A DNA stretch of 42,249 bases, taken from positions 1 to 42,249 of the forward strand of contig CAJJCU010000045.1 of NCBI GenBank assembly GCA_905182775.1, given 5' to 3'. Of this stretch, positions 7,661 to 41,648 are shown piece by piece. The translations under genes and the position numbers were made by a program. This stretch comes from an uncultured Flavobacteriales bacterium. Lineage in GTDB: Bacteria > Bacteroidota > Bacteroidia > Flavobacteriales_D > Crocinitomicaceae. Each line of letters begins with the position of its first letter. Positions within the stretch are counted from its first letter, which is position 1. Under the pieces are notes generated by a model. The model ran no database searches. It had not been told where the DNA came from and saw nothing but the letters and a program-made list of their open reading frames with translations.

Positions 7661-8686
7661 ATGCGTAAAAAAGTTTTAGTTACGGGTGGTGCTGGGTATA
7701 TTGGTTCGCATACTGTTGTGGAGCTTTTTAACGCGGGCTATCAGCCAATCATATTGGATGACTTTAGAAACTCTGATGAGTCGGTACTTGATGGTATTTC
7801 TCAAATTATAGGATCAAAACCTGAATTGTTAAGAGGCGACGTTTGCGACACAAATCTGCTTAGCAAGTTCATAAAGGAAAATGAAATTTGTGGAATCATA
7901 CACTTTGCCGCCTATAAGGCTGTTGGAGAATCTGTGGAAAAGCCTTTAAATTATTATCAAAACAATTTAGAGGGCTTGGTTGCAGTGCTAAAGGTCGTTT
8001 CTATGCATCCTGAGATTACTTTTGTTTTTTCTTCGTCATGTACCGTCTACGGTGAGCCTTTTGGTCAAAAAGAAGTGACTGAGAAAACAGAAAGGAGCAT
8101 TCCAACTTCTCCCTATGGTTACACAAAATGGTTGGGAGAACAAATTATAAATGACGTCTTTAACTCGAATGCAGACCTTCGGTTGATGAGCTTGCGCTAT
8201 TTTAACCCTATTGGTGCGCATGAATCAGCGGCAATTGGAGAGCTACCTATAGGGAAGCCTAACAACTTACTACCTTTTATCACGCAGACTGCTGCAGGAC
8301 TGCATGACCAATTAACTATTTTTGGAAATGATTACCCGACAATTGATGGGACATGTGTTCGTGACTACATTCATGTTGTTGATCTTGCCGAGGCGCATGT
8401 GAAGGCCTTAGATTTTTTGGTGAAGGAATCAAAAGGATGTCATGAGGTCGTCAATATTGGTACAGGAAAGGGCTCTAGTGTCTTGGAAATGGTTCGTGCC
8501 TTTGAGCAAGTGAATCAGGTTAAATTGAATTATGAATTTGGGCCAAAAAGAGCTGGTGATGTCATAGAGATATATGCAAATGTTGATTATGCAAAGGAAC
8601 TTCTGGCTTGGCAAGCAAATAAAACGATTACAGATGCGGTAAGAGATGCATGGAATTGGGAAAAATTAATCCGCTCCATAGAATGA
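7661..8686 (+). CDS. galE: UDP-glucose 4-epimerase
   Basis: Interconverts UDP-glucose and UDP-galactose in the cytoplasm, supplying galactose for surface glycans. The 341 residues match the usual 335-345. It is an extended short-chain dehydrogenase: NAD-binding GGAGYIG (9-15), LRGDV near 57-61, the SSSCTVYG segment with the catalytic Ser (about 124-126), and the YxxxK pair Tyr152/Lys156 in SPYGYTKW. PIGAHESAAIGE and the C-terminal GRPS-like KRAGD segment are also typical of GalE. Its stop codon overlaps the next start (ATGA at 8683-8686), so it heads a tightly packed operon with a barrel protein, tatD and ansA. Other sugar-nucleotide epimerases are possible, but the motif set fits GalE best. 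Confidence 0.95.
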   Translation: MRKKVLVTGGAGYIGSHTVVELFNAGYQPIILDDFRNSDESVLDGISQIIGSKPELLRGDVCDTNLLSKFIKENEICGIIHFAAYKAVGESVEKPLNYYQNNLEGLVAVLKVVSMHPEITFVFSSSCTVYGEPFGQKEVTEKTERSIPTSPYGYTKWLGEQIINDVFNSNADLRLMSLRYFNPIGAHESAAIGELPIGKPNNLLPFITQTAAGLHDQLTIFGNDYPTIDGTCVRDYIHVVDLAEAHVKALDFLVKESKGCHEVVNIGTGKGSSVLEMVRAFEQVNQVKLNYEFGPKRAGDVIEIYANVDYAKELLAWQANKTITDAVRDAWNWEKLIRSIE

Positions 8687-9405
8687 GATTAGTGATTATA
8701 TTTCTTTTCATCTGTTTTGTTTCAACCGCTCAAGGAGAAAAAAAACAAACACAAGAGCGACCTGGTTTATTTTGGTATTTCAGTGGCTTGAGGCCATTTA
8801 AGGATACCGATAGAAAAAAGTATGATCGTGTTATCGTTGACTTAACCTATAACGATTGGATTGGGGAAAATGGCCCTTTCAATAACAACTGGAATTCAAT
8901 TGGAGTAGCCGCGAGTCTCAATAAAGATATCCTCTTGGAGCGTTCAGAAAACATCACGTTAGGTATTGGTTTAGGTTATGGTTATTTAAACCATCGTACT
9001 CCCAGGCTATTTTATGTGACGCCATTTGAATCTGTTCAATCTCAGGTCCCAGTATCGACGGACAGCATTATCTCGTCATTTTTTACAGTGCATCAATTTT
9101 ACATTCCTTTAGAGCTCCGGTTCAGGTCAAAAGGGTGGAAACACAAAAAAATAATTTTAGGGGCGAGATTGGGTATTCAACCCTTTATGAATATAAGTTC
9201 CTACCGCACATTTGAAGGGCAAGTTGAATATTCCGAGGTTAAATTAAAAGAGGAATACAATTGGTTTTACTTTTCGACCTATATCCGATGTGGGTTTAGA
9301 AATTGGTCTTTATTTTGTGCTTACCAACCTCTTTCAATCTTCTCAAATAATCAAAGTATGGAAATTCATCCGCTACAAATGGGAGTAAGCCTTTCTTTAT
9401 TCTAA
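8683..9405 (+). CDS. Predicted outer-membrane beta-barrel protein
   Basis: I chose the ATG at 8683 (240 residues), which overlaps the galE stop as ATGA and gives a proper signal peptide (MRLVIIFLFICFVSTAQG); an upstream in-frame ATG at 8650 would hide it. The mature protein has alternating amphipathic strands rich in Tyr/Phe/Gly (LGIGLGYGYLNHR; YIPLELRFRSK; KIILGARLGIQPFMN; FYFSTYIRCGF) and ends in Phe (MGVSLSLF), the C-terminal signature expected of a BAM-assembled barrel. It resembles the PorT/OmpA-barrel-like proteins common in Bacteroidota. Substrate or partner unknown. It lies between galE and tatD, with its stop overlapping the tatD start as TAATG. Confidence 0.75.
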   Translation: MRLVIIFLFICFVSTAQGEKKQTQERPGLFWYFSGLRPFKDTDRKKYDRVIVDLTYNDWIGENGPFNNNWNSIGVAASLNKDILLERSENITLGIGLGYGYLNHRTPRLFYVTPFESVQSQVPVSTDSIISSFFTVHQFYIPLELRFRSKGWKHKKIILGARLGIQPFMNISSYRTFEGQVEYSEVKLKEEYNWFYFSTYIRCGFRNWSLFCAYQPLSIFSNNQSMEIHPLQMGVSLSLF

Positions 9406-10190: not shown

Positions 10191-11209
10191 CGAAAGTATT
10201 AGTCATCTATACGGGTGGTACGATAGGAATGATCAAAGACCCTGAATCAGGACTATTGAATAGTTTTGACTTTAATTCTGTTTATGAGCATATACCTGAG
10301 CTCAATAGATTGAACGTAGAGATCGATACGATGAGCTTTAAAAAACCGATAGATTCTTCTGAGATTACTCCAAAGCATTGGGTGGAGCTGGCAGAGTGTA
10401 TCAAAAAATCCTATAGCGCCTACGATGGGTATGTCGTTCTACACGGAACGGATACGATGTCTTTTACGGCCTCAGCATTGAGTTTCATGATTCAAGGTCT
10501 TCAAAAGCCAATCATTTTTACGGGAAGTCAATTACCCATAGGGGTCATAAGGACAGACGGGAAAGAGAATCTCATAACTGCAATTGAAATCGCTGCTGCT
10601 AAAGATTCTAACGGTGAATCTATTGTTCAGGAGGTTGCCGTTTATTTTGAGTATTCCTTGTACAGAGGGAATAGAAGCTCGAAAGTGAGTTCACATCAAT
10701 TTGAGGCATTTAAATCTCCAAATTATCCTGAATTGGCAGTTGCAGGTGTCAATATTAAATACAAATGGAATAGTTTATTGCGGTCACAACACCCAGAACC
10801 CATTTACCAATTTGACTTATCGACCTCAGTCGCATTGCTTAAAATATTCCCAGGAATGGATATTGAAATTTATAAAGGGATATTCAATTTGGCGCAGACC
10901 AAGGGAATTGTTTTGGAGACATTTGGTTCTGGAAATGCCCCATCCAATATTGCAATGCAAAAGATGATGGAGCAATATGTTGAGGCGGGCGGTGTCATTC
11001 TTAACATAACGCAATGCAGCACAGGTGGCGTGAAGCAAGGAGCCTACCAAACGAGTTCTTTTTTCAATAAAATAGGGGTTATTAGTGGCGTTGATATGAC
11101 TGCGGAAGCGGCATTGACAAAGCTGATGTTCGTCTTGGGCACGTGCACCTCTGTTGCCGAGGTAAAAGAGCTTATTTCGACTCCTATTTGCGGAGAGATG
11201 GAGCGCTAG
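10187..11209 (+). CDS. ansA: L-asparaginase, type I (cytoplasmic)
   Basis: Hydrolyses L-asparagine to aspartate and ammonia. The 340 residues carry both family signatures: YTGGTIGM with the nucleophile Thr12, and LHGTDTMSFTASALSFM (about 85-101) with Thr88 and Asp89. No signal peptide is present, so this is the cytoplasmic, AnsA-like type. FTGSQLPIGVIRTDGKEN is also typical. The ATG overlaps the tatD stop (ATGA). At the other end its TAG shares the palindrome CTAG with the stop of the convergent ftsE gene. A glutamyl-tRNA amidotransferase-like or lysophospholipase side role, as in some homologues, cannot be excluded. Confidence 0.94.
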   Translation: MTKVLVIYTGGTIGMIKDPESGLLNSFDFNSVYEHIPELNRLNVEIDTMSFKKPIDSSEITPKHWVELAECIKKSYSAYDGYVVLHGTDTMSFTASALSFMIQGLQKPIIFTGSQLPIGVIRTDGKENLITAIEIAAAKDSNGESIVQEVAVYFEYSLYRGNRSSKVSSHQFEAFKSPNYPELAVAGVNIKYKWNSLLRSQHPEPIYQFDLSTSVALLKIFPGMDIEIYKGIFNLAQTKGIVLETFGSGNAPSNIAMQKMMEQYVEAGGVILNITQCSTGGVKQGAYQTSSFFNKIGVISGVDMTAEAALTKLMFVLGTCTSVAEVKELISTPICGEMER

Positions 11210-11880
11210 ACTCTTTGGTCAATGACTTCTCCATTTTCGACCAATAGCGTTCTATTTGGAAATAATTTCACAATATGCATGTCGTGGGTAGCCATAAGGA
11301 TTGAAGCTTTTTTCTCTTTTGCTACTGCAATTAATAAGCGCATAATTTCTTCCGAAGTTTCTGGATCTAGATTGCCCGTAGGTTCATCAGCTAAAATTAG
11401 CTTCGGCTCATTTAATAAGGCTCTGGCAATCGACACTCTTTGTTGCTCTCCTCCGGATAGCTCATGAGGCATTTTTTCATTCATGTCTTCGAGTCCCACC
11501 ATTTTTAAACAAGCGATCGCACGTTCATGTATAAGGGGCTTTTTCCTCCATCCTGTAGCTTTAAGAACGAAATAAAGGTTCTGAATTACTGTTCGATCCA
11601 TTAATAATTGAAAATCTTGAAAAACGATTCCGATTTTTCTTCGAACCAAAGGAATATCTCGTCTTTTTAATTTTCGCAGATCATACGTGTCAAATTGGCC
11701 TTTCCCATTTGTTAATGGTAATTCGCCATAGAGTGTTTTTAAAATGCTACTCTTCCCACTTCCTGTTTTTCCTATTAAGTAAACAAATTGACTTTCTTCA
11801 ATATTCAATTGGACGTTAGAGAGAACTTTGTTCCCTTTTTGGAAAATATCGGTGTTTTCGAGAGTAACTACTTTAGACAT
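11206..11880 (-). CDS. ftsE: FtsE-like cell division ABC transporter ATP-binding protein
   Basis: The 224 residues from the ATG at 11880 match the usual FtsE length (222 in E. coli); a longer upstream reading into 12063 would run through the promoter of the neighbouring gene and is rejected. Walker A is GKTGSGKS (37-44), the ABC signature LSGGEQQRVSIARALL (141-156), Walker B LILADEPTGNLD (161-172) and the H-loop His199. With FtsX, FtsE powers activation of peptidoglycan hydrolases at the division site. The start MSKVVTLENTDIFQ and YLIGKTGSGKSS resemble flavobacterial FtsE. No ftsX is adjacent, which I recall as usual in Bacteroidota. LolD is the main alternative, but no LolC/E partner is present. 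Confidence 0.85.
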   Translation of the reverse strand: MSKVVTLENTDIFQKGNKVLSNVQLNIEESQFVYLIGKTGSGKSSILKTLYGELPLTNGKGQFDTYDLRKLKRRDIPLVRRKIGIVFQDFQLLMDRTVIQNLYFVLKATGWRKKPLIHERAIACLKMVGLEDMNEKMPHELSGGEQQRVSIARALLNEPKLILADEPTGNLDPETSEEIMRLLIAVAKEKKASILMATHDMHIVKLFPNRTLLVENGEVIDQRV

Positions 11881-12007
11881 AAAACTTATGTGTTTATACA
11901 AAAGTGCAGAATCATCTTCGTCATAAATGAATTGTTTTGGAATATCTCTTAACATGATGAGGTTTAAAACTTTTGAATTCTTACTTAAAATGGCTTGTTT
12001 GTGAATG

Positions 12008-12019: not shown

Positions 12020-15000
12020 GTGCGACAATGTAGAACAATAAGTATTTTGATGGCGTTTGCCATCCTTCCTTTTCTTGTTTTCTCCCAGGAAACAGATAAG
12101 TATTCAAGTCTCTATGAAGGATATTTTCGTGGAGAAGAGTTTTATTCCAATTTGCAATATGGTGCTGCTAAAAAGGAGTTTAGAGATTTCATAACCCATT
12201 GTGATAACTATAATGACCCTTTGTTTCAGAAGGCATTGTATTATGAAGGAATGGCTGGTCTTGAACTTTATAATAGCGATGCCATTGATCTTCTTATGGA
12301 GTACAATCGGCTTTATCCTGAAAACATTCACCGCAAGTTCATCAATTTTAAAATTGGTAACTCCTTCTTTCAAGATGAAACCTATGATGATGCACAAATT
12401 TGGCTCGATAAGTTGTCTGCCAGTGATTTAGACACCACTTACCGGGAGGAATATCATTTTAAGTTAGGGTATGCAGCTCTTCAAAATGAAGACTCGGAAG
12501 TAGCAATTAATGCCTTTCGAGAAAATTTAAAAGGCCACTCTCAGTATGCCCCTCCAAGCAAATACTTTTTTGCTCATTTATGTTTTGAAAGGGGATCTTA
12601 TCAGCTCGCCCTAGAACAATTTATAGCGCTTGAAAAAAACACCTCTTATTGCGGGATTGTTCCTTATTACATTGTTCAAATTTATCACAAGCAGGGAGAT
12701 TTTGATGCGGTAATTGACTATGCACCAACCGTTCTGTCTTGCAAGCTGGTTAATCATGAAAAGGACGTCAACCATATTATTGGAAACGCACATTATAAGA
12801 AGCGGAACTATCAGGATGCGTTAAGCTACCTCATTAAGTATGCGAAGAAATCTCGTTTACGCAGAGAGGATGCCTATCAGATTGGGTATGCCTTTTTTCA
12901 AACAAAGTCCTACGGTAAGGCCATTCAGTATCTTGATCAAGTTGCCCGTATAGATGATAGTTTAGGGCAAATCTCAATGTATAAAATAGCGGAGTGTTAC
13001 CAACTAACCGAACAGCTTTTACCTGCAAGAAGTGCCTTTGAATATGCATCTGAAATGACATCTATTCCAAAAATACAAGAAGATGCATTGTATAATTTTG
13101 CTGTGATTTCTTTCGCCGTAGACATCAATCCTTACGATGAGTCGGTTCGAGCTTTCGAGAACTATCTTGAAAAGTATCCAAACTCTTCAAGAAAAGGAGA
13201 TGTCTATCAATACTTAATCAACGCCTATAGCTCGACAAGTAATTATAAAAAGGCGATTGAATCTCTTAAAAAGCTTCCAAATTTAGATACACGATTAAAG
13301 CGCGTCTATCAAACTTTGTCCTACAATCATGGTGTTGAGTTATTTCAGAAGCGTCTATACAACTCATCTATTCGTGCATTTGCAGCTGTAAATGACCACC
13401 CAATTGACCCACAGCTCTCGGCTCTTTCTAGATACTGGATTGCAGATGCCTATTTCAGACAAAACAAAATGCAGGAAGCTATTGCAAATTACAAGATGTT
13501 TATTGCTTCTCCTGCTTCAAATTCGATCCCAGAAAAAATCGATGCTTTTTACAACATTGCATACGCCTATAAAGAAATTGATGCAGAAACTAGAGCTTCT
13601 GAGAATTTTAGAATTTACTTACAATCCAATCCAAACAACCCGAGAAAAGAGGTTGATGCCTGTTTTAGAGTTGCTGATATTTTTTACCTCAACAAAGAAA
13701 ATGCGTTAGCTATTGAGTTCTATGAAAAGGCATTGGCTTATAACACAAAATTAAATGACAAGGCCCTTTATTATGTTGCCAAAACTTATGGGTATAGCGG
13801 GCAAGGTGCGCTTAAAGTCTCAAAACTGATTGAAATTTTAACGACCTACGTTGACTCTAAATATGCAATGAATGCTACCTATGAGCTGGCAAACACCTAT
13901 TCCTCTATAGGGAACAATGATGATGCTTTAATCTATTACGATAATTTGCTTATTGATTATCCGAATTCTCCTTTCCTTACGCAGGCAAAGATTGGTAAAG
14001 CAAATTGTTATCTAAAAAAGTGGCAATATGAAAAAGCAGAGACCGCATATCTAAAGGTACTTGCAGAGCACGAAAACGAGAATGACGTTTGCGAGATTGC
14101 AGCCAAAGGATTGGTTGATGTTTATACAGCCCTTCAAAAGCCTCAAAAGGCCGCTGAGGTTGTAGATCGTTATAGCTGTATCAATTACACGGACGATGAA
14201 AAGGAGAATCTATTTTACACGCCTGCGCTTCAAGCCTACCTTGATACAAATTACATGGAGGCTATTGATAAATTTAAAATTTACCTCAATAGCTTCTCTG
14301 AGTCTGGTCAGTATGTTGCCGAAACGTATTATTACCTAGGAACTTCTTATTTGGCGGTCAATGATACGTTAAACGGGATCGAGAATTACAAACTATTTTT
14401 AGCGCGAACCACAAATTCTTATAGTGAAGCTGCTGCGCGTAAAGTTTCTAGATACTATTATAGCCAAAAGGATTATGCAACAGCCGTTTCCTATTATGAA
14501 AAGCTAGAACTTTTAGCAACGACACCGAGCACCATCTTTATTTCACGTTTTGGTATTATGCGGTCTGCTTATTTTATCGAGGACTATCTAAAGAGCAAGC
14601 AATATGCGGCGTTGGTTCTTGAGTCACCAGCTTTAGATAACACCCAGGAAGCGGAAGCTAATTATGCTTTGGGGATTTCTGCTTATCGCTTGAAGATTTA
14701 TACTGATGCAATTACACCGTTGCGATGGTTGGTCGGAAATACTACAACATTTATGGGCTCAGAGGCCAAGTATTCCTTAGCCTATATTAATTTCATAGAG
14801 GAAGATCTAGAGGGAGCAAGAAAAGGAATAAAAGAGCTCCTAAAGATGAAACCAAGTTATGATTATTGGATAGCGAAAGCTTTGATTTTAAAATCGAGAA
14901 TTTTTGTAAAAGAAGCAGACTATGTACAAGCTGAACAAAATTTAAAATCCGTAAAAGAGCATTATCCGATCCAAGATGATGGTGTGGTTGACGAAGCGAA

Positions 15001-15094
15001 TGCTTTGTGGCAAGAAATCCTTCTTTTAAAAGAAGCAGAAGAAAATAAAGAAGAGGAAAATCCAGAAACTAAAATTGAAATAAATGAAGAATAG
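12020..15094 (+). CDS. Large secreted tetratricopeptide-repeat protein
   Basis: A 1024-residue protein. The GTG at 12020 gives a good signal peptide (MRQCRTISILMAFAILPFLVFSQ, positive start then hydrophobic core); the later ATG at 12050 would lose the charged N-region. The mature protein is almost entirely TPR-like helical repeats with typical A/Y/G/F spacing, for example ALYYEGMAGLELY, AAKKEFRDFI, AIQYLDQVARI, AIANYKMFI, AIEFYEKALAY, ALIYYDNLLIDYPNSP and AIDKFKIYLNSF. It ends in an acidic tail. Bacteroidota have such long periplasmic TPR proteins, sometimes labelled 'putative component of TonB system'. It overlaps the next gene, an outer-membrane barrel, by 11 bp, so a shared role at the outer membrane is likely but inferred. 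Confidence 0.88.
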   Translation: MRQCRTISILMAFAILPFLVFSQETDKYSSLYEGYFRGEEFYSNLQYGAAKKEFRDFITHCDNYNDPLFQKALYYEGMAGLELYNSDAIDLLMEYNRLYPENIHRKFINFKIGNSFFQDETYDDAQIWLDKLSASDLDTTYREEYHFKLGYAALQNEDSEVAINAFRENLKGHSQYAPPSKYFFAHLCFERGSYQLALEQFIALEKNTSYCGIVPYYIVQIYHKQGDFDAVIDYAPTVLSCKLVNHEKDVNHIIGNAHYKKRNYQDALSYLIKYAKKSRLRREDAYQIGYAFFQTKSYGKAIQYLDQVARIDDSLGQISMYKIAECYQLTEQLLPARSAFEYASEMTSIPKIQEDALYNFAVISFAVDINPYDESVRAFENYLEKYPNSSRKGDVYQYLINAYSSTSNYKKAIESLKKLPNLDTRLKRVYQTLSYNHGVELFQKRLYNSSIRAFAAVNDHPIDPQLSALSRYWIADAYFRQNKMQEAIANYKMFIASPASNSIPEKIDAFYNIAYAYKEIDAETRASENFRIYLQSNPNNPRKEVDACFRVADIFYLNKENALAIEFYEKALAYNTKLNDKALYYVAKTYGYSGQGALKVSKLIEILTTYVDSKYAMNATYELANTYSSIGNNDDALIYYDNLLIDYPNSPFLTQAKIGKANCYLKKWQYEKAETAYLKVLAEHENENDVCEIAAKGLVDVYTALQKPQKAAEVVDRYSCINYTDDEKENLFYTPALQAYLDTNYMEAIDKFKIYLNSFSESGQYVAETYYYLGTSYLAVNDTLNGIENYKLFLARTTNSYSEAAARKVSRYYYSQKDYATAVSYYEKLELLATTPSTIFISRFGIMRSAYFIEDYLKSKQYAALVLESPALDNTQEAEANYALGISAYRLKIYTDAITPLRWLVGNTTTFMGSEAKYSLAYINFIEEDLEGARKGIKELLKMKPSYDYWIAKALILKSRIFVKEADYVQAEQNLKSVKEHYPIQDDGVVDEANALWQEILLLKEAEENKEEENPETKIEINEE

Positions 15095-16817
15095 TAAACT
15101 GTATTTATTGCTTTTTTCATTTTTTATCATCGTCCATATGGGTTATGCACAGCCACCGGATGTTACGATTGATGGTCGTGGTAGTCGTCAAGTAGAACCA
15201 GCTCACAGGCTCACTGTCTCACCTCAAGTGATTGACACGGTGAAACCTTCAGCTGTAGCGTCTTACCCCCTTTTGGTCTACCTTTATCCTACTGACATTC
15301 GTCTTAATCCAATAAAGGCCGCAGAAATAGAGACGACGGAAAAGTTACGCCAGCTCTATCCTTTTTATGCAAAAATAGGTGTCGGTTCTGGAGTAATGCC
15401 ACTAGGTCAGTTTGTTTATAATTCAACGCGTTCGAAAGGTTATCAATATAGACTAAAAGCAGATCACGTAAGCTCTTTTGCATCTATAAAGGACAGAGAT
15501 AATGTAGCATATGCTCCTGCAAACTTTGACAAAACCGGTGTCTCACTTCATGGTAAAATTGTTGACAATCGTTATATGATAAACGGGCAATTAGATTATC
15601 AAAACCATGGATTCAATTATTATGGAATTCCATCTGATACGATTGATAAATCCCTCATTGGGCAAAGGTTCCAAAAGTTCGGTGGTAAAATGGGTTATGT
15701 CTCTGACTTTGGAGATAGTGCGGTGATGAATTATGCCGCTGATCTAGATTACCATTACCTGCAGACGGCATCACCTTTAGAAGATTCCTTAGCTGAATGG
15801 AGGTCTGCGGAGCATAACGCAAAGTTCAATATTAAGGGTTGGTATAATTATAAATCCGAGGAGTTTTATGCGAATTTAGGATTAAGGTTTAATGATTATA
15901 GTTTTGGAACTGAAGATTCAATTGTCAGCTCATCCTTAGATTCTGGTCGAGCAATGACCAATACAATTATTGATTTAAAGCCGGGTGTTTTAACACAACT
16001 GATGAATAACCGATTCAAATTGGATCTGGGCTTTTCAATGTCTGTAGATATAGGTGAGGAAACCAAGTTTTATGTCTACCCGCAAGCCGAGGTGAAATAT
16101 TCGCTATTTAATGATATTTTCATTCCATTTGCAGGTATTCGAGGTGGGCTTGAGCAAACCTCTTTTTCTTCTTTGACTCAGGTCAACCAATTTCTTGCGC
16201 CCTCAGTGGTTCTGGCTAATGAAAATAATCCCTACGATATTTATGGAGGAATTAAAGGAACCTTAAGTAAAAACATGGGCTTTAATGTGAATGTAAGTTT
16301 TAAAAAGATCACCAATAAGGCACTTTTTGTTACGGATACACTTGGGGAATTTAGAAATAAGTTTGCTTTGATTTATGACACCTTGAACCATACGAGAATT
16401 GAAGCTTCTATGTTTTACCAACTTGATGAAAAGCTCAAAATTGATGGACTGGCGCGCTATAATTCCTATGAGACAAAAAATGAGTCATTTGCTTGGAATC
16501 TTCCAACCTTAGAGTTTCAGCTAAGGGCTTCTTATAATTTATTTGATAAGTTCTTATTAAATATTGATGGGCATATTGAAACTGGGCGTAAGGCTTTAGT
16601 TTATGAATCAGGGGAAGATGTCCTCGAGGAGAATGACCAGTATTATGTTGCTTTGGGTAGCATTGTTGATTTCAACCTTGGTGTTTCCTACCGTTATAAT
16701 AAAAGAGTTACGGCTTTCTTAGAGCTAAATAACCTTGCATCTCAGCGATATAATAATTGGTACAATTATCCTGTCCAACCTATTCAGGTAATGGGTGGTG
16801 TTTCCTTTAGATTTTAA
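15084..16817 (+). CDS. TonB-receptor-like outer-membrane barrel without a plug domain
   Basis: A 577-residue protein with a signal peptide (MKNSKLYLLLFSFFIIVHMGYAQ). A short N-terminal region (24-110) contains no recognisable TonB box or plug motifs. About 450 residues of amphipathic strands follow, and the end reads FLELNNLASQRYNNW ... GGVSFRF. The N-N-L-x-x-Q-R-Y and terminal G-x-x-F-R-F pattern is that of the last strands of TonB-dependent receptor barrels. A full receptor usually has 650-1000 residues with a plug of about 130, so this looks like a plugless relative acting as a structural or assembly protein rather than a transporter. It is translationally coupled to the TPR gene (11-bp overlap); a quinone-reductase-like gene follows 5 bp later. 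Confidence 0.8.
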   Translation: MKNSKLYLLLFSFFIIVHMGYAQPPDVTIDGRGSRQVEPAHRLTVSPQVIDTVKPSAVASYPLLVYLYPTDIRLNPIKAAEIETTEKLRQLYPFYAKIGVGSGVMPLGQFVYNSTRSKGYQYRLKADHVSSFASIKDRDNVAYAPANFDKTGVSLHGKIVDNRYMINGQLDYQNHGFNYYGIPSDTIDKSLIGQRFQKFGGKMGYVSDFGDSAVMNYAADLDYHYLQTASPLEDSLAEWRSAEHNAKFNIKGWYNYKSEEFYANLGLRFNDYSFGTEDSIVSSSLDSGRAMTNTIIDLKPGVLTQLMNNRFKLDLGFSMSVDIGEETKFYVYPQAEVKYSLFNDIFIPFAGIRGGLEQTSFSSLTQVNQFLAPSVVLANENNPYDIYGGIKGTLSKNMGFNVNVSFKKITNKALFVTDTLGEFRNKFALIYDTLNHTRIEASMFYQLDEKLKIDGLARYNSYETKNESFAWNLPTLEFQLRASYNLFDKFLLNIDGHIETGRKALVYESGEDVLEENDQYYVALGSIVDFNLGVSYRYNKRVTAFLELNNLASQRYNNWYNYPVQPIQVMGGVSFRF

Positions 16818-18158: not shown

Positions 18159-19289
18159 ATGAAAATAGGTTTGTATTTAATATCCTTTTTAGGATTGTTT
18201 ATCGCTTGCTCCACTGACGATTATAATGAGTCAACAAGTTCTGATGTGCTCATCGATGCTCCATCCGCATCTTATGGTGATTTGAAAGCAGCTATAGACA
18301 CAAAACTGATTAAAAACCCGAATGATGTCTCCCTTTTAGTCAATCGTGCAAATTTAGCTTTAGAGCACTACGATTACCCTCGCGCTTTTTCTGATGCGGC
18401 AAAAGCCTTTCGTTTAGATAGTAATTTTTTGGATTCTCGACTTGTTTATGCTCTTGCAATGATCAATCAAGGCCAGCGTAGTGTTGCCGATATTAGAGAG
18501 TCTCAAAGGCATTTTCAATTCGTGGTATCGAAAGACGCCAACAATACAAAGGCAATGGTAGGATTAGCCAATACTTATGCTTTACAGCAGGATTTTGAAT
18601 TGGCAAGAGAATGGATTGAAAAAACATTGATCGTGGATCCAAAATTTTTTGATGCGCATGTCCTAAAGGGAAGTATGTACAAGGTTCTATGCGGAGCATT
18701 GAAGGGTGATAAGGAGTCTGAGAAGCTTTCTAAAATCTATTTAGATTCGGCTATTCAAGCTTATTCACGTGTAAGTCAATATTATCCAGATAGGCCAGAG
18801 ATCTACCTTGAGCTCGGCATTTTATTCCAGCAGTCAAATAATGAAATTTGTCTTGATTATTATTATTCAGCCGTGCAATTAGCCCCGGAAAATATGGATT
18901 ATAAATATGCATTGGCTTATGCGTATGGTCTTTTCGACGAAGAAAGAAAAGCCATGGCTATTTATTTAGAGATGCAAGAACAAGACTCTCTTTTTTGTGA
19001 AGCTTTTTGTCAGATGGGACAAATTTATCAAAAGAAATTCGGCGAAATTGACAGTGCTTTAAACATGTATAGGACAACGATTGAAATAGATGAAAACCAT
19101 ATAGATGCGTACGTGAATATGGGGGTCATTTATGAAGAACAAAAGGATTACTATAACGCCATAAGGAGTTATGCAAGAGCACTAGCAATCGAACCCGATA
19201 ATAGAGGCCCTTATATGCCTTTAAGCGATTTTTCTGAAATCCAGGGTTTGGCGAGAGAATATGCCGATGGACTCAAAAATAAATTGTGA
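18159..19289 (+). CDS. TPR-repeat lipoprotein
   Basis: A 376-residue protein with a lipoprotein signal (MKIGLYLISFLGLFIAC), the lipidated Cys being residue 17, followed by an acidic Ser/Asp-rich linker (STDDYNEST). From about residue 40 it is built of TPR units, for example LLVNRANLALEHYDYPRAF, AMVGLANTYALQQDFELA, SAIQAYSRVSQYYPDRPEIY and AYVNMGVIYEEQKDYYNAIR. It is presumably an outer-membrane-anchored periplasmic scaffold, like many Bacteroidota TPR lipoproteins; its partner is unknown. Its stop overlaps the GTG of the following membrane protein (GTGA at 19286-19289), so the two are cotranslated. Confidence 0.87.
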   Translation: MKIGLYLISFLGLFIACSTDDYNESTSSDVLIDAPSASYGDLKAAIDTKLIKNPNDVSLLVNRANLALEHYDYPRAFSDAAKAFRLDSNFLDSRLVYALAMINQGQRSVADIRESQRHFQFVVSKDANNTKAMVGLANTYALQQDFELAREWIEKTLIVDPKFFDAHVLKGSMYKVLCGALKGDKESEKLSKIYLDSAIQAYSRVSQYYPDRPEIYLELGILFQQSNNEICLDYYYSAVQLAPENMDYKYALAYAYGLFDEERKAMAIYLEMQEQDSLFCEAFCQMGQIYQKKFGEIDSALNMYRTTIEIDENHIDAYVNMGVIYEEQKDYYNAIRSYARALAIEPDNRGPYMPLSDFSEIQGLAREYADGLKNKL

Positions 19290-37045: not shown

Positions 37046-38407
37046 ATGAAAATAACTAACATTCAGAAAGTTACAAAGACCAGCTTGGGTTTACAGGCCT
37101 TGGTTCTTTTCTTCTTTCTTACACTCGTCCCAGCGTACTTTTCTCAAGGAGAAGGTCTTTTTAAGGCCAAATGTGCAACTTGTCACGCTGTTTTCAAAAA
37201 CGGAACCGGCCCTAAATTGTATGAAGCCCGCCAAAGGTGGGAGTCTGTCGATGAAGGAGAATTCATTTATGAATGGGTCCGAAATAATGCTGCTTTAAGA
37301 GCGAGCGGAAAGTCAATTCGTGCAAATGAAATATTTCAAGAGTATAAGGGGAGTGTAATGTCTGTTTTTGCTGATCTTTCAGATGAGCAAATCACATCTA
37401 TATTTGATTGGGTTGATTCTCAAGATCCAAATGCACAGGCTGCAGGTGGAGGCGCTCAAGCTTCCGCAGGTGGAGGAGATGTAATGGAAGAAGAAAAAGG
37501 TCTTCCTTGGACCTGGATCTTAATGGGAATCATGTTCAGCATTATTATCATGGCTGTTGGTGGTGTTAGACGTCAATTGAAAATCGCCACTAAAGAAAGC
37601 CTAGAGGGCGCTGAAGGGCTGACTTATGTCGAGGAGTTTAAAACATGGGCCTGGAAATACAGGCTGTATGTTGGACTTGCCACACTGGTTATTGTACTCT
37701 CTTTAATTGTAGGCTTTTTCCAAACCTTGTATCAAATTAACCTGCAAGAGGGTTACCAACCTTCTCAACCTATTGCATTTCCACATGATGTCCACGCGGG
37801 TGTCAATGGTATTGACTGTAAGTATTGTCACAATTCTGTAACCAAGTCGAAGTCGGCTGGCTTACCAACGGTTAACGTTTGTATGAATTGTCACAAGAAA
37901 ATCGACGGGGAAGGGAAAGAATTCCAAGGAGAGATTAATAAAATATATGCTGCTGCAGGATGGGATCCAACGAAAGGGCCTTCTGGTGAGTACACTGGAA
38001 AAACCAATCCAATCGTTTGGAACAAAGTTCATAACCTTCCTGACCACGTCTATTTTAATCACTCTCAGCACGTTGAGGTTGGCGGTTTAGATTGTAAGCA
38101 ATGTCATGGTGATATGGCAAAACTTAAAGAAACAGCAAAAGTACAGCCACATCAAGAGTTGAATAAGATTGCAGAAAATATTGAAAGCAAAATAGAATTT
38201 GATAGAGCAACCCTGACAATGGGATGGTGTATTCAATGTCACGACCAATCTGGAATCTCCCTAACGGACGGGAAAAACCAGTACTATACAGAAATCCATG
38301 ATCGTTTGAAGAAGAATGATTACGACTTATTGAATTCCTACAATGAAGATGGCCGAGTGTCTGTGAAAGAGCTTGGTGGTTGGGAATGTTCAAAATGTCA
38401 CTATTAA
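37046..38407 (+). CDS. actA: Alternative Complex III subunit ActA: monoheme plus pentaheme cytochrome c
   Basis: A 453-residue multiheme cytochrome. After a signal or anchor segment (about 14-33) comes a class I cytochrome c domain with CATCH (43-47), then two membrane helices (about 154-173 and 207-227), then a periplasmic part with CKYCH (258-262), CMNCH (279-283), CKQCH (350-354), CIQCH (395-399) and CSKCH (448-452): six heme sites in all. The C-terminal five match the pentaheme ActA of Alternative Complex III, which takes electrons from the quinol-oxidising core to cytochrome c or directly to the oxidase. The extra N-terminal monoheme domain is fused here; I recall it from other flavobacterial homologues. 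It begins the act operon, 31 bp before actB. Confidence 0.93.
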   Translation: MKITNIQKVTKTSLGLQALVLFFFLTLVPAYFSQGEGLFKAKCATCHAVFKNGTGPKLYEARQRWESVDEGEFIYEWVRNNAALRASGKSIRANEIFQEYKGSVMSVFADLSDEQITSIFDWVDSQDPNAQAAGGGAQASAGGGDVMEEEKGLPWTWILMGIMFSIIIMAVGGVRRQLKIATKESLEGAEGLTYVEEFKTWAWKYRLYVGLATLVIVLSLIVGFFQTLYQINLQEGYQPSQPIAFPHDVHAGVNGIDCKYCHNSVTKSKSAGLPTVNVCMNCHKKIDGEGKEFQGEINKIYAAAGWDPTKGPSGEYTGKTNPIVWNKVHNLPDHVYFNHSQHVEVGGLDCKQCHGDMAKLKETAKVQPHQELNKIAENIESKIEFDRATLTMGWCIQCHDQSGISLTDGKNQYYTEIHDRLKKNDYDLLNSYNEDGRVSVKELGGWECSKCHY

Positions 38408-38438
38408 TATAGAAATTGTCTACCGAAAGAAGAATATT

Positions 38439-41400
38439 ATGACAAACGAAAAAAAATATTGGAAAGGAATGGAGGAGCTTACGGAAACGGCTTCTTTTCA
38501 AGAATCAAAGGATTCTGAATTCCCTCAATCAAACTCGGTTGAAGGATTCCTTACCGATGATGAATTGAACGAGTCAAGCACTGGACGAAGAGATTTTTTA
38601 AAGTTCCTAGGTTTTTCTGTCGCCGCGGCAACTGTTGCAGCATGTGAGGCTCCTGTCATAAAAGCAGTTCCTTATGTGATGAAACCAGAAAATGTAGTTC
38701 CAGGAATGCCTACATGGTATGCCTCTACCTATTACGATGGAAGTTCTTATGCAAGTATTTTAGTAAAAACGAGAGAGGGAAGACCTATCTTCGTGAAAGG
38801 GAATAAAGATTTCGGCTTTTCCAAAGGAGTTGTAAATGCACAAATCATTGCTTCTGTTCTTGGTTTGTATGACAGTGAAAGGCTTCAATTTCCGCAGATT
38901 AAAGGAAAAAAAGCATCATGGTCTGGTGTAGATAGTAAAATTATAAAAGCGCTAGAAGTCGCTAAAAAGACAGTTCTAGTTTCAAATTCGATTATAAGCC
39001 CTTCTGTATTAAAGTCTATTGATGCCTTAAAGTCCTCTTTATCTGGAGGTTTTGAGCACATTCAGCACGATGCCATTTCGTATTCAGCAATGCGTAAGGC
39101 CAACGAATCAAATTTTGGTAAGGATTTAATTCCGAGCTATGATTTTTCTAAGGCGCGCACTGTTGTTTCTGTAAATGCAGATTTTTTGAATTCTTGGTTG
39201 ATGCCTACAGAATTTTCATGCCAATATGGTGTGGGAAGAAATCCAGATGAAGAATGGATGTCAAAGCATTTTCAATTTGAGGCAGTAATGAGTATTACTG
39301 GGTCTAACGCGGATTACCGTGGGATGACAAAGCCCTCTGAGGAAGAGGCTGTTTTAAAATTCATTCTTGCGAGTCTGACAGGCAAAACCCCTCCACCTCT
39401 TTCAGCAGCGTTGAATAAAATAGCAGGTCTTGCTGTTAAAAGCTTAAAGTCAAGTGGTAAAGATTCTTTAGTTGTCTGTGGAACGAACAATACTGGTCTG
39501 CAGCTTTTGGTTAATGAAATCAATAACTACCTCGGCTCTTACGGAACGACTATTGACCTATACAATGAGGTTAATTTATTTCAATCTCAAGATGAAAAGA
39601 TGTTGACCTTCGCTAATGAAGTAGCAAAAGGAATGCATAAAGACACGGCAGTTATTTTTTACAACTCTAACCCATCTTATTACTTACCGAATTCGGCAGC
39701 ATTTAAAAAGGGATTGAAAAACATTAAGGTTTCAGTTTCAATGAATTCGCATGATGATGAAACAGGTGTAGATTGTACTTACAATTGCCCTGATCACCAT
39801 GGCCTTGAGTCATGGGCAGATCACCATCCAAAAACAAATCATTATGGATTGTCTCAGCCGACAATCACACCGCTTCACGATACAGCCTCTGCGATTGAAT
39901 CATTTGCAGTATGGTCTGGTGTTGCAAAAAGAAGAATGACAAATGCAGATGCAGACTTTTCATATAAATTCATTAAAGAAACATTTGCAAGCCTAAGTGG
40001 CGAGGATTTTGATTTGGCTGTTCATAATAGTTGTATCACTATTCCTCAGGCAATGATCGAAGATCGTATCGCATTTAATTCTGTAGAACCAACAGGTTTC
40101 CAGGAGTTTAAGAAAGGATTAGAAATTGTCACTTATCAAAAAGCAGGTATTGGAGATGGTAAATTTGCAAGTAATCCATGGTTGCAAGAAATGCCTGATC
40201 CTATTTCTAAAGTGACTTGGGACAACTACATTACCATGAACCCGGTTGAAATGACCAAAAAAGGTTACAAAACAACATTTGATCAGGAAAATGGACTTTC
40301 CCTAGTGAAGATTTCTTCAAATGGAACAGCGTTCACACTCCCTGTTTATCCTTCTCCTGGACAAGCCCTAGGTACCGTTGGTATTGCGCTTGGATATGGC
40401 CGTGGTGGTAATGGAGAGAAAATCGGTAAAGCAGCCTACCAGACTAAAGAATATGGTGGTTATGAGACAAATGAAAAAGGTTTTCCAAAGCCTATTGGAC
40501 AGAACGCATATCGATTTGTTACTCTTGATAACCAAGAGATGGGTTATGCCAATAGCGCAAAAATCACGAATGTAGAAGGTGAATATATTATAGCTGCAAC
40601 CCAAATTCACCATACGGTAATGGGTAGACACTCTATCGTTAGAGAAACAACAAAAGGAATCTATGACTCCAAAGGAAAGGAGTCTTACAATCCTACGCAC
40701 ATGCTTCAGACCTTAGATGAAAATGCGAATCACGTTGCCAAGCCAGTAGGAGAATTTGATTTATGGGATGAGCATCCTGTTGAAAATATTGGACACAGGT
40801 GGGCGATGTCAATCGACCTTAATGCATGCTTTGGATGTGGAGCATGTCTTATTGCTTGTCAGGCAGAAAACAATGTTCCTGTTGTGGGTAAAGACGAAGT
40901 AAGAAGAGGTCGTGAGATGCATTGGTTGCGTCTTGATCGCTATTACGCAAGTGATGAAGAGGCTGCAGTTGGAACGAAAAAGGATAAAAGTGACTTCTCC
41001 TATGCAGATGCCGAAATTGCTTCATTGAACCCAAAGGTGGTTCACATGCCTATGATGTGTCAGCATTGTAATCATGCTCCTTGTGAAACGGTTTGTCCTG
41101 TAGCGGCAACTACGCATAGCAATGAAGGCCTGAATCAAATGACATATAACCGTTGTATCGGTACAAGATATTGTGCGAACAACTGTCCATATAAAGTAAG
41201 AAGGTTTAATTGGTATAATTACCCTTCATATAAGAAATTCACGGAGATCAACCCAGCTCAAGACGACCTTGGAAGAATGGTATTGAATCCTGATGTTACT
41301 GTTCGTACTCGAGGTGTTATGGAGAAATGTTCCATGTGCGTTCAGAATATTCAAGCTGCAAAACTGCAGGCTAAAAAAGAAAGCCGACCAGTTGTTGACG

Positions 41401-41648
41401 GTGATGTTAATTCCGCTTGTGGTGATTCATGTCCCGCAGGAGCAATTGTCTTTGGAGACTGGAATGACGTAAATTCAGAAATTAGGAAGAGTTCTGAGGA
41501 CAAAAGGTCTTATCAAGCTCTAGAAGAGATTGGAGTGAAACCCAACGTATGGTATAAAGTAAAGGTTCGTAATGAGGAAAATGACTTATTGTCAAAACTT
41601 CAGGTCGAAAAGAAAGCGCATCACGAACCAAGTCACAAACAACATTAA
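38439..41648 (+). CDS. actB: Alternative Complex III subunit ActB: molybdopterin-oxidoreductase-like plus Fe-S protein
   Basis: The 1069 residues run from the ATG at 38439 (MTNEKKYWKGMEELTE); the longer reading from 38373 overlaps the end of actA and is rejected. A twin-arginine signal (GRRDFLKFLGFSVAAA, Arg50-Arg51) precedes a Cys (CEAP, residue 69), a likely lipid-attachment site. The middle (about 75-770) is a molybdopterin-oxidoreductase-like fold (B1), which in known ActB binds no molybdenum. The end (B2) is a ferredoxin-like domain: CFGCGACLIAC (797-807), CQHCNHAPCETVC (874-886), CIGTRYCANNCP and CSMC ... CGDSCPAGAIVFGD, in line with four Fe-S clusters. It works with ActA and ActC in quinol oxidation. 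Confidence 0.95.
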   Translation: MTNEKKYWKGMEELTETASFQESKDSEFPQSNSVEGFLTDDELNESSTGRRDFLKFLGFSVAAATVAACEAPVIKAVPYVMKPENVVPGMPTWYASTYYDGSSYASILVKTREGRPIFVKGNKDFGFSKGVVNAQIIASVLGLYDSERLQFPQIKGKKASWSGVDSKIIKALEVAKKTVLVSNSIISPSVLKSIDALKSSLSGGFEHIQHDAISYSAMRKANESNFGKDLIPSYDFSKARTVVSVNADFLNSWLMPTEFSCQYGVGRNPDEEWMSKHFQFEAVMSITGSNADYRGMTKPSEEEAVLKFILASLTGKTPPPLSAALNKIAGLAVKSLKSSGKDSLVVCGTNNTGLQLLVNEINNYLGSYGTTIDLYNEVNLFQSQDEKMLTFANEVAKGMHKDTAVIFYNSNPSYYLPNSAAFKKGLKNIKVSVSMNSHDDETGVDCTYNCPDHHGLESWADHHPKTNHYGLSQPTITPLHDTASAIESFAVWSGVAKRRMTNADADFSYKFIKETFASLSGEDFDLAVHNSCITIPQAMIEDRIAFNSVEPTGFQEFKKGLEIVTYQKAGIGDGKFASNPWLQEMPDPISKVTWDNYITMNPVEMTKKGYKTTFDQENGLSLVKISSNGTAFTLPVYPSPGQALGTVGIALGYGRGGNGEKIGKAAYQTKEYGGYETNEKGFPKPIGQNAYRFVTLDNQEMGYANSAKITNVEGEYIIAATQIHHTVMGRHSIVRETTKGIYDSKGKESYNPTHMLQTLDENANHVAKPVGEFDLWDEHPVENIGHRWAMSIDLNACFGCGACLIACQAENNVPVVGKDEVRRGREMHWLRLDRYYASDEEAAVGTKKDKSDFSYADAEIASLNPKVVHMPMMCQHCNHAPCETVCPVAATTHSNEGLNQMTYNRCIGTRYCANNCPYKVRRFNWYNYPSYKKFTEINPAQDDLGRMVLNPDVTVRTRGVMEKCSMCVQNIQAAKLQAKKESRPVVDGDVNSACGDSCPAGAIVFGDWNDVNSEIRKSSEDKRSYQALEEIGVKPNVWYKVKVRNEENDLLSKLQVEKKAHHEPSHKQH

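Follow-up and report, generated by a model that had tools for sequence, protein, structure and literature searches.

We analysed a stretch of 42,249 nucleotides (the window), which is one contig (CAJJCU010000045.1) of the 79.6% complete genome GCA_905182775.1 (G000) from an uncultured Flavobacteriales bacterium. Our subject is a pair of overlapping genes at positions 12,020 to 16,817, encoding a giant tetratricopeptide repeat (TPR) protein and a predicted outer-membrane barrel of the TonB-receptor type. An earlier note on this DNA had proposed the pair as a candidate envelope machine, and the 11-bp gene overlap that it described agrees with the coordinates of the open reading frames (ORFs). 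As judged by eye, both proteins start with a Sec-type signal peptide that has no lipobox. The features of the locus are as follows.

12020..15094, + strand: TPR gene (ORF, 1024 amino acids, GTG start), encoding a giant, probably periplasmic TPR scaffold with a Sec signal peptide (from the ORF, Pfam TPR_16 and other TPR models, and AlphaFold2)
15056..15091, + strand: acidic tail at the C-terminus of the TPR protein, carrying a short strand motif of the IEI type (from relatives' tails, by eye)
15084..15094, + strand: overlap of the TPR and barrel genes, 11 bp (from ORF coordinates)
15084..16817, + strand: barrel gene (ORF, 577 amino acids), encoding a predicted plugless TonB-receptor-type outer-membrane barrel (from the ORF, the predicted model and the alignment with FhuA)
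15150..15353, + strand: mature N-terminal tail of the barrel protein, residues 23-90, predicted to be plugless; DVTIDG, a degenerate segment resembling a TonB box, lies close to the start (from relatives' N-termini and a low-confidence model)
15354..16814, + strand: predicted barrel domain, residues 91-577, about 22 strands (from the model and structure comparison)
11206..11955, − strand: FtsE-like ABC ATPase, divergent neighbour (from an NCBIfam match; the start codon is uncertain, at 11955 or 11880)

The AlphaFold2 model of the TPR protein (mean predicted local distance difference test score (pLDDT), 89.3; predicted TM-score (pTM), 0.46) is all helical from residue 33 to residue 1012, and describes a superhelix with 54 helices past the signal peptide. 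Its top structural matches are LGN-type and consensus TPR proteins; SprE also appears among the matches, with a Z-score of 20.6 but an r.m.s. deviation of 20.9. Searches of the PDB with the sequence and with its profile returned TPR proteins of many kinds. Identification as PorW/SprE (NF052312, 36.7 bits against a cut-off of 250), BamD (31.7 bits against 81.4), LapB (at most 37.5 bits against 363) or CpoB (whole-protein model NF008068, 25.5 bits against 383) was rejected. The YbgF model TIGR02795 does pass its cut-off (132.7 bits, summed over seven TPR stretches, against 90.1), which in a protein of 1024 residues is likely an effect of the repeats. The C-terminal residues 1013-1024 are modelled with low confidence. 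Short strands of the IEI, MEIDF and LEIRF type recur, by eye, among the tails of relatives, of which 40 of 67 were listed; the strand resembles the tail of the barrel protein described below and could act as a docking strand.

The barrel protein belongs to no Pfam or NCBIfam family at E-values up to 0.1, and its sequence has no match in the PDB at E-values up to 10. A search of the PDB with its profile gave a single 45-residue C-terminal match, to FauA (E = 0.035). The predicted structure, obtained with 70 aligned sequences, has a mean pLDDT of 84.6 and a pTM of 0.77. Foldseek placed BtuB at the top, with Cir and FhuE in the top ten and TM-scores of about 0.6, while VIA-align, in which ranks less than one Z unit apart count as tied, placed FhuA at the top (Z = 21.5; r.m.s. 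deviation of 3.7 for 443 residues). The aligned segment, FhuA residues 159-714, is the FhuA barrel minus its plug, and an alignment of this extent contradicts the claim of the earlier note that the barrel is too short. The note had also seen no plug and had proposed structure prediction as a check. Here it was right: neither the Pfam search nor the predicted model revealed a plug domain, and residues 22-90 are unstructured and of low confidence in the model, in which the first barrel strand starts at residue 94. The protein is, according to this model, a full-size TonB-receptor-type barrel without a plug. Relatives are similar in length, the labelled barrels at the surveyed loci having 530-671 amino acids.

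When the relatives are aligned, a recurring short strand, which we take to resemble a TonB box, emerges at the start of the mature barrel tails, where the earlier note had reported no TonB box. Examples are KEVQVVKPYEPTISDAFKI and ETVTVVKPYSPTVSDAFKI within the class to which the window's genome belongs, PEFVITG and QDIEIRSEF outside the class, and EEIEVV among the phylum-wide examples. A TonB-box-like pattern, defined ad hoc, occurs in 102 of 179 barrel tails, compared with about 41 in shuffled sequences. These observations are suggestive of a TonB-box-like strand at the N-terminus of the barrel protein.

The barrel is present in 51 of 60 relatives, and in 40 of the 41 genomes that are at least 90% complete. 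Each of the 51 matching relatives has a single barrel, split into two pieces in two of them, and G000 also has one match. At each of the first 30 loci, comprising that of the window, 28 from its genus and one from its order, the TPR gene lies directly upstream of the barrel gene. We also scanned genome contigs with the TPR protein alone and retained the best 80 of 566 relatives. The barrel is the next gene at 75 of these 80 loci; the remaining five comprise one locus in which the ORFs are broken and four that stop at the TPR gene or just past it. The two genes are conserved as a pair far beyond chance, a point on which the earlier note had made its proposal depend. A phylum-spanning barrel profile was then searched in 296 genomes, with matches counted by eye at E-values up to 1e-21, a line chosen post hoc from the values in family f28; match coverage was visible for the listed matches. 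By this count the barrel is found in 205 of 231 genomes outside f28 and in none of the 65 inside it, and 72 of 73 class genomes pass. There is one true exception to the pairing, G110 (L236), in which the TPR and barrel genes are about 190 kb apart. The TPR gene is present but on a different contig from the barrel in six of six genomes tested from families f34 and f61, and it is absent upstream of the barrel at L268, where the search covered the locus only. At one f34 locus (L097:8325-9341), a lysylphosphatidylglycerol synthase TM-type gene (PF03706) stands upstream of the barrel in place of the TPR gene.

In other lineages the pair is often the beginning of a longer operon, in the order TPR protein, barrel, SPOR protein, ExbB/TolQ, ExbD/TolR and TonB-like arm. 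We surveyed 39 class loci (one for each of the 38 genera with a match, and two for one genus) and 21 loci outside the class, chosen from 70 matching genomes, labelling the downstream genes by profiles; in two of the latter (L260 and L270) the class profile detected no barrel ORF, and they were dropped, leaving 19. A TPR gene lies upstream of the barrel at 38 of the 39 class loci and 12 of the 19 outside-class loci. Within four genes downstream of the barrel, ExbB is found at 14 of 19 outside-class and 9 of 39 class loci, and both ExbB and ExbD at 13 and 7 loci, respectively; an HU/SPOR-type gene, detected with a custom hidden Markov model, occurs in the same interval at 17 of the 39 class loci. 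The linkage of barrel and ExbB was seen in nine families (f14, f19, f20, f24, f34, f41, f44, f45 and f61). The 52 ExbB matches in 26 class genomes amount to about two per genome; if a genome has about 3000 genes, one of these would fall within four genes of any chosen gene by chance at well under 1% of loci.

The gene that follows the barrel encodes a SPOR domain over the Pfam cut-off at all nine outside-class loci scanned (L097, L099, L100, L256, L257, L264, L266, L267 and L269). Of the four class operon loci scanned, L238 has HU domains over the cut-off, and L081 and L083 have them below it. A hydropathy scan found one membrane span each in two SPOR proteins, from L081 and L093. PF01618 (ExbB/TolQ) and PF02472 (ExbD/TolR) are over the cut-off in the operons and in G000. 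One aspartate of ExbD, which we take to be the proton-carrying residue, is invariant in all nine sequences aligned. The gene after ExbD encodes a single-span protein with a TonB-type C-terminus (the arm), in which TonB_C is over the cut-off at all three outside-class loci scanned (L097, L256 and L266). In the seven class operons with ExbB, ExbD and the arm, folC follows the arm every time. A gyrB-type gene is also frequent downstream of the barrel; its cluster occurs at 52 loci (among L032-L180), one example of which was scanned. Both folC and gyrB were considered as machine parts and set aside as neighbours with no obvious function there.

Similar parts are present in G000, on other contigs. 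One contig (L214) encodes, consecutively, ExbB (222 amino acids), ExbD (136 amino acids), a single-span protein of 216 amino acids, and folC; a third contig (L213) encodes a protein in which HU-CCDC81 domains 1 and 2 and a SPOR domain all exceed the cut-off. The hydropathy scan of this SPOR protein gave no membrane span over the threshold, and a hydrophobic stretch near residue 175 was taken by eye as the span. The 216-residue protein matches no Pfam TonB model, and its identity as the arm is drawn from gene order, topology and a weak resemblance (30 bits) to the arm of L081. G000 also has another, longer ExbB set (C59), which falls on a separate tree branch and resembles transport sets. In all 26 other barrel-carrying genomes searched, the top match to an operon-type ExbB profile, which includes the G000 ExbB itself, adjoins ExbD; 11 of the 26 have a further protein and then folC, three have folC on the opposite side, and ExbD is doubled in two (G096 and G121). 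An HU-CCDC81 domain was found in 56 of 60 relatives.

According to the available text of PMC12204202, Bacteroidetes have no identifiable tol-pal loci, and PorE is proposed as a tether. In our sample TolB_N matches 19 of 296 genomes and 1 of 73 in the class, with no match in the incomplete genome G000. No TolB-like gene was recognised in the pair and motor operons looked at, and no Pal was recognised in the operons, although this was not a dedicated Pal search and did not extend to OmpA-type proteins elsewhere. Ten of the 19 TolB_N genomes belong to family f28, in which 10 of 65 genomes match. Both f28 loci opened (L313 and L314) contain a tol-pal operon, with TolQ-like, TolA-like, TolB and lipoprotein-like genes in a row; TolR was also labelled at one of them, and likeness to TolA, Pal and CpoB was judged by position and by eye. 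None of five f28 genomes tested has a TPR match at E-values up to 1e-20. None of the 65, the ten TolB_N genomes included, has a barrel match better than 2.4e-20, and neither has G325, a TolB_N genome outside f28; the f28 barrel matches of an earlier search are C-terminal pieces of ORFs of 629-812 amino acids. Chlorobi are listed among the phyla with tol-pal in the available text of PMC7391070, which would fit f28. This distribution is suggestive, but not proof, of mutual exclusion between the pair and tol-pal.

We propose that the two genes encode the outer-membrane end of a Tol-like trans-envelope machine, powered by protons, linked to a SPOR protein and present in most of the Bacteroidota genomes sampled, and give this reading a probability of roughly 0.5. 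Coupling of the pair to a motor is well supported. What the analysis shows directly is the gene pairing, the predicted folds, the lack of a plug in the model, the shared operon in many lineages and the similar parts in G000. A role in division, the arm-barrel and TPR-barrel contacts, a septal location and a Tol-like function are parts that we infer, and the mechanism would be as follows. A dedicated ExbB/TolQ-ExbD/TolR motor would drive the TonB/TolA-like arm by proton-motive force. The arm would reach the outer membrane and grip the plugless N-terminal tail of the barrel protein through its TonB-box-like strand. The TPR scaffold may hold barrel, arm and cell wall together and connect wall enzymes to both arm and barrel, in the manner of CpoB with TolA (PMC7391070). 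The set would be tied to peptidoglycan, possibly septal, by a membrane protein whose HU-type domain is cytoplasmic and whose SPOR domain is periplasmic. SPOR domains bind septal cell wall, and this one could bring the machine to the septum. The most likely job of such a machine is the one done elsewhere by Tol-Pal, namely drawing the outer membrane inwards and stabilising it as cells grow and divide. We advance more tentatively the wider possibility that Bacteroidota have replaced Tol-Pal with a proton-powered division machine of their own, in which the plugless barrel serves as outer-membrane handle, a TonB-like arm pulls, the TPR protein organises, and the SPOR/HU protein connects to the septal wall and perhaps the nucleoid. 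The titles and abstracts of the literature searched, preprints and most subscription journals aside, contain no description that we could find of the pair or the operon.

Several observations weigh against this proposal. The support is genomic and from single-chain predictions. ExbB is within four genes of the barrel at none of 96 loci (20 of the window's order and 76 from the TPR scan, the 76 having titles such as Flavobacteriales, Bacteroidales and Bacteroidetes), one of which, L121, has ExbB-ExbD five genes downstream. In class operons, SPOR is below the cut-off at L091 and L238 and was not found at L081 and L083, and none of the four class arms scanned reaches the TonB_C cut-off (L081 is below it; L091, L238 and G000 have no match). 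The arm is followed by folC in none of 14 outside-class cases. The G000 ExbB is on a very long tree branch, so that the tree does not establish the orthology of the motor, which is taken from gene order and folC synteny. The TonB-box-like segment in the window (DVTIDG) is degenerate, in addition to the ad hoc nature of the pattern. As for the distribution of Tol-Pal, exclusivity comes from one family, with TolB_N in only 10 of its 65 genomes. The barrel is present in eight of the 19 TolB_N genomes (G104, G142, G192, G233, G295, G296, G299 and G300), and TolB_N also scores over the cut-off in the control genome, Bacteroides ihuae. The TolB_N matches in the eight genomes are mostly weak and in ORFs of other lengths (309-326, 720 or 1037-1105 amino acids in seven of them; 446 and 350 in G300), and no ExbB or ExbD was found in the 11 kb around the G300 match, the only one of the eight opened. 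These TolB_N matches, in genomes that have the barrel as well as in the Bacteroides control, lower our confidence in both the Tol-like machine and the replacement of Tol-Pal.

Some of the same evidence could be read differently. The barrel fold, the TonB-box-like tail and the ExbB-ExbD-TonB-like set in the operon would all suit a TonB-driven transporter with an unusual gate, whose barrel moves some substrate (nutrient, lipid or fragment of the cell wall) and whose plug is replaced by the N-terminal tail or the TPR protein. We consider such a transporter unlikely. The plug is absent from the model, and relatives are of similar length; each of the 51 relatives has a single barrel and not a variable paralogue family, and we know of no place for SPOR and HU domains or a 1000-residue TPR scaffold in known Ton importers. 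An ordinary TonB-dependent importer is likewise unlikely in our judgement, given that no plug was detected and that the TPR and SPOR partners are fixed. On this point the earlier note, which favoured an envelope machine over a nutrient importer, is supported.

A wide plugless barrel would also be apt for a motor-powered factor that assembles or exports protein, lipid or lipopolysaccharide at the outer membrane. TPR scaffolds are used by the β-barrel assembly machinery (BAM), the type IX secretion system (T9SS) and LapB, all of which give matches to the TPR protein or its profile, but the PorW/SprE, BamD and LapB models are far under their cut-offs, and we regard this explanation as rather unlikely. 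The components of the Flavobacterium johnsoniae BAM complex given in the available text of PMC12611786 are BamA, D, G, H, M and P. Finally, the pair might be a passive tether between outer membrane and cell wall, its link to a motor operon being historical and non-functional. The separate location of the motor set in G000 and the lack of a nearby ExbB at all of the 96 loci speak for a tether; against it, the link to the motor is found repeatedly, in nine families that lie both within and beyond the class, and operon-type ExbB occurs with ExbD in each of the 26 barrel-carrying genomes searched. A passive tether seems improbable. The assembly or anchoring complex suggested by the earlier note survives as an envelope machine and not as a passive anchor, since ExbB, ExbD, TonB-like arm and SPOR protein share the operon elsewhere, which points to a motor-coupled system.

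The divergent neighbour of the pair is closest to the NCBIfam model TIGR02673 (224.8 bits, under the cut-off of 264.85). Its longest ORF, of 285 amino acids, reaches into the TPR gene and is probably overlong at the start. An FtsE gene is divergent and directly upstream at 60 of the 103 pair loci that have an upstream gene, in keeping with the division context hinted at from this neighbour in the earlier note; as it is the divergent neighbour at only part of the loci, we treat FtsE as context and not as a functional partner. A tatD gene and an asparaginase gene adjoin ftsE and the pair in the window, and at four loci of the same order (L223, L224, L228 and L229) a longer ExbB set and an HU/SPOR gene are beside tatD and the asparaginase gene. 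Upstream of tatD, positions 8650-9405 encode a probable small outer-membrane protein of 251 amino acids with no Pfam match. A second TPR protein (18159-19289; 376 amino acids), likely a lipoprotein, is also near the pair at the same-genus loci L013 and L022. Further away, positions 37046-41648 encode a multihaem cytochrome c protein and, after it, a large 4Fe-4S protein (Pfam Cytochrome_C7 and Fer4_7), possibly part of an alternative complex III cluster.

If the proposed machine exists, a nutrient-receptor barrel has been turned into a mechanical handle. The conserved gene set, with the barrel in 205 of 231 genomes outside f28, offers named targets in tractable laboratory strains. The absence of tol-pal loci reported in the available text of PMC12204202 raises the question of how the outer membrane is constricted and retained in Bacteroidetes.

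The closest parallel is the Tol-Pal system (TolQRA-TolB-Pal-CpoB), which has in common with the machine proposed here a TolQ/TolR-type proton motor, a single-span arm, a periplasmic TPR protein encoded in the operon, a link to peptidoglycan and, probably, division. It differs in several respects: the operon described here has neither TolB nor a recognised Pal, with a SPOR/HU protein in Pal's stead, the outer-membrane end would be a plugless TonB-receptor-type barrel, and the TPR protein is about four times the size of CpoB. The Ton system and its receptors share the ExbB-ExbD-TonB-like set, the barrel type and the TonB-box-like tail, whereas our barrel has no plug and no Pfam receptor match, and comes with a fixed TPR partner and a SPOR protein in the operon. 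PorE, a CpoB-TolB-Pal-like fusion, has likewise been proposed to fill the Tol-Pal gap of Bacteroidetes, but in the available text of PMC12204202 it is a single multidomain lipoprotein with a role in the T9SS and domains unlike those of the pair. In the T9SS, too, a Bacteroidota proton motor (PorLM/GldLM) works on a complex in the outer membrane, together with the TPR protein PorW/SprE. The family of that motor and the T9SS barrel are unlike those described here; the PorW model, too, is far under its cut-off on our TPR protein. Overall, we rate the system as belonging to the known class of proton-motor trans-envelope systems.

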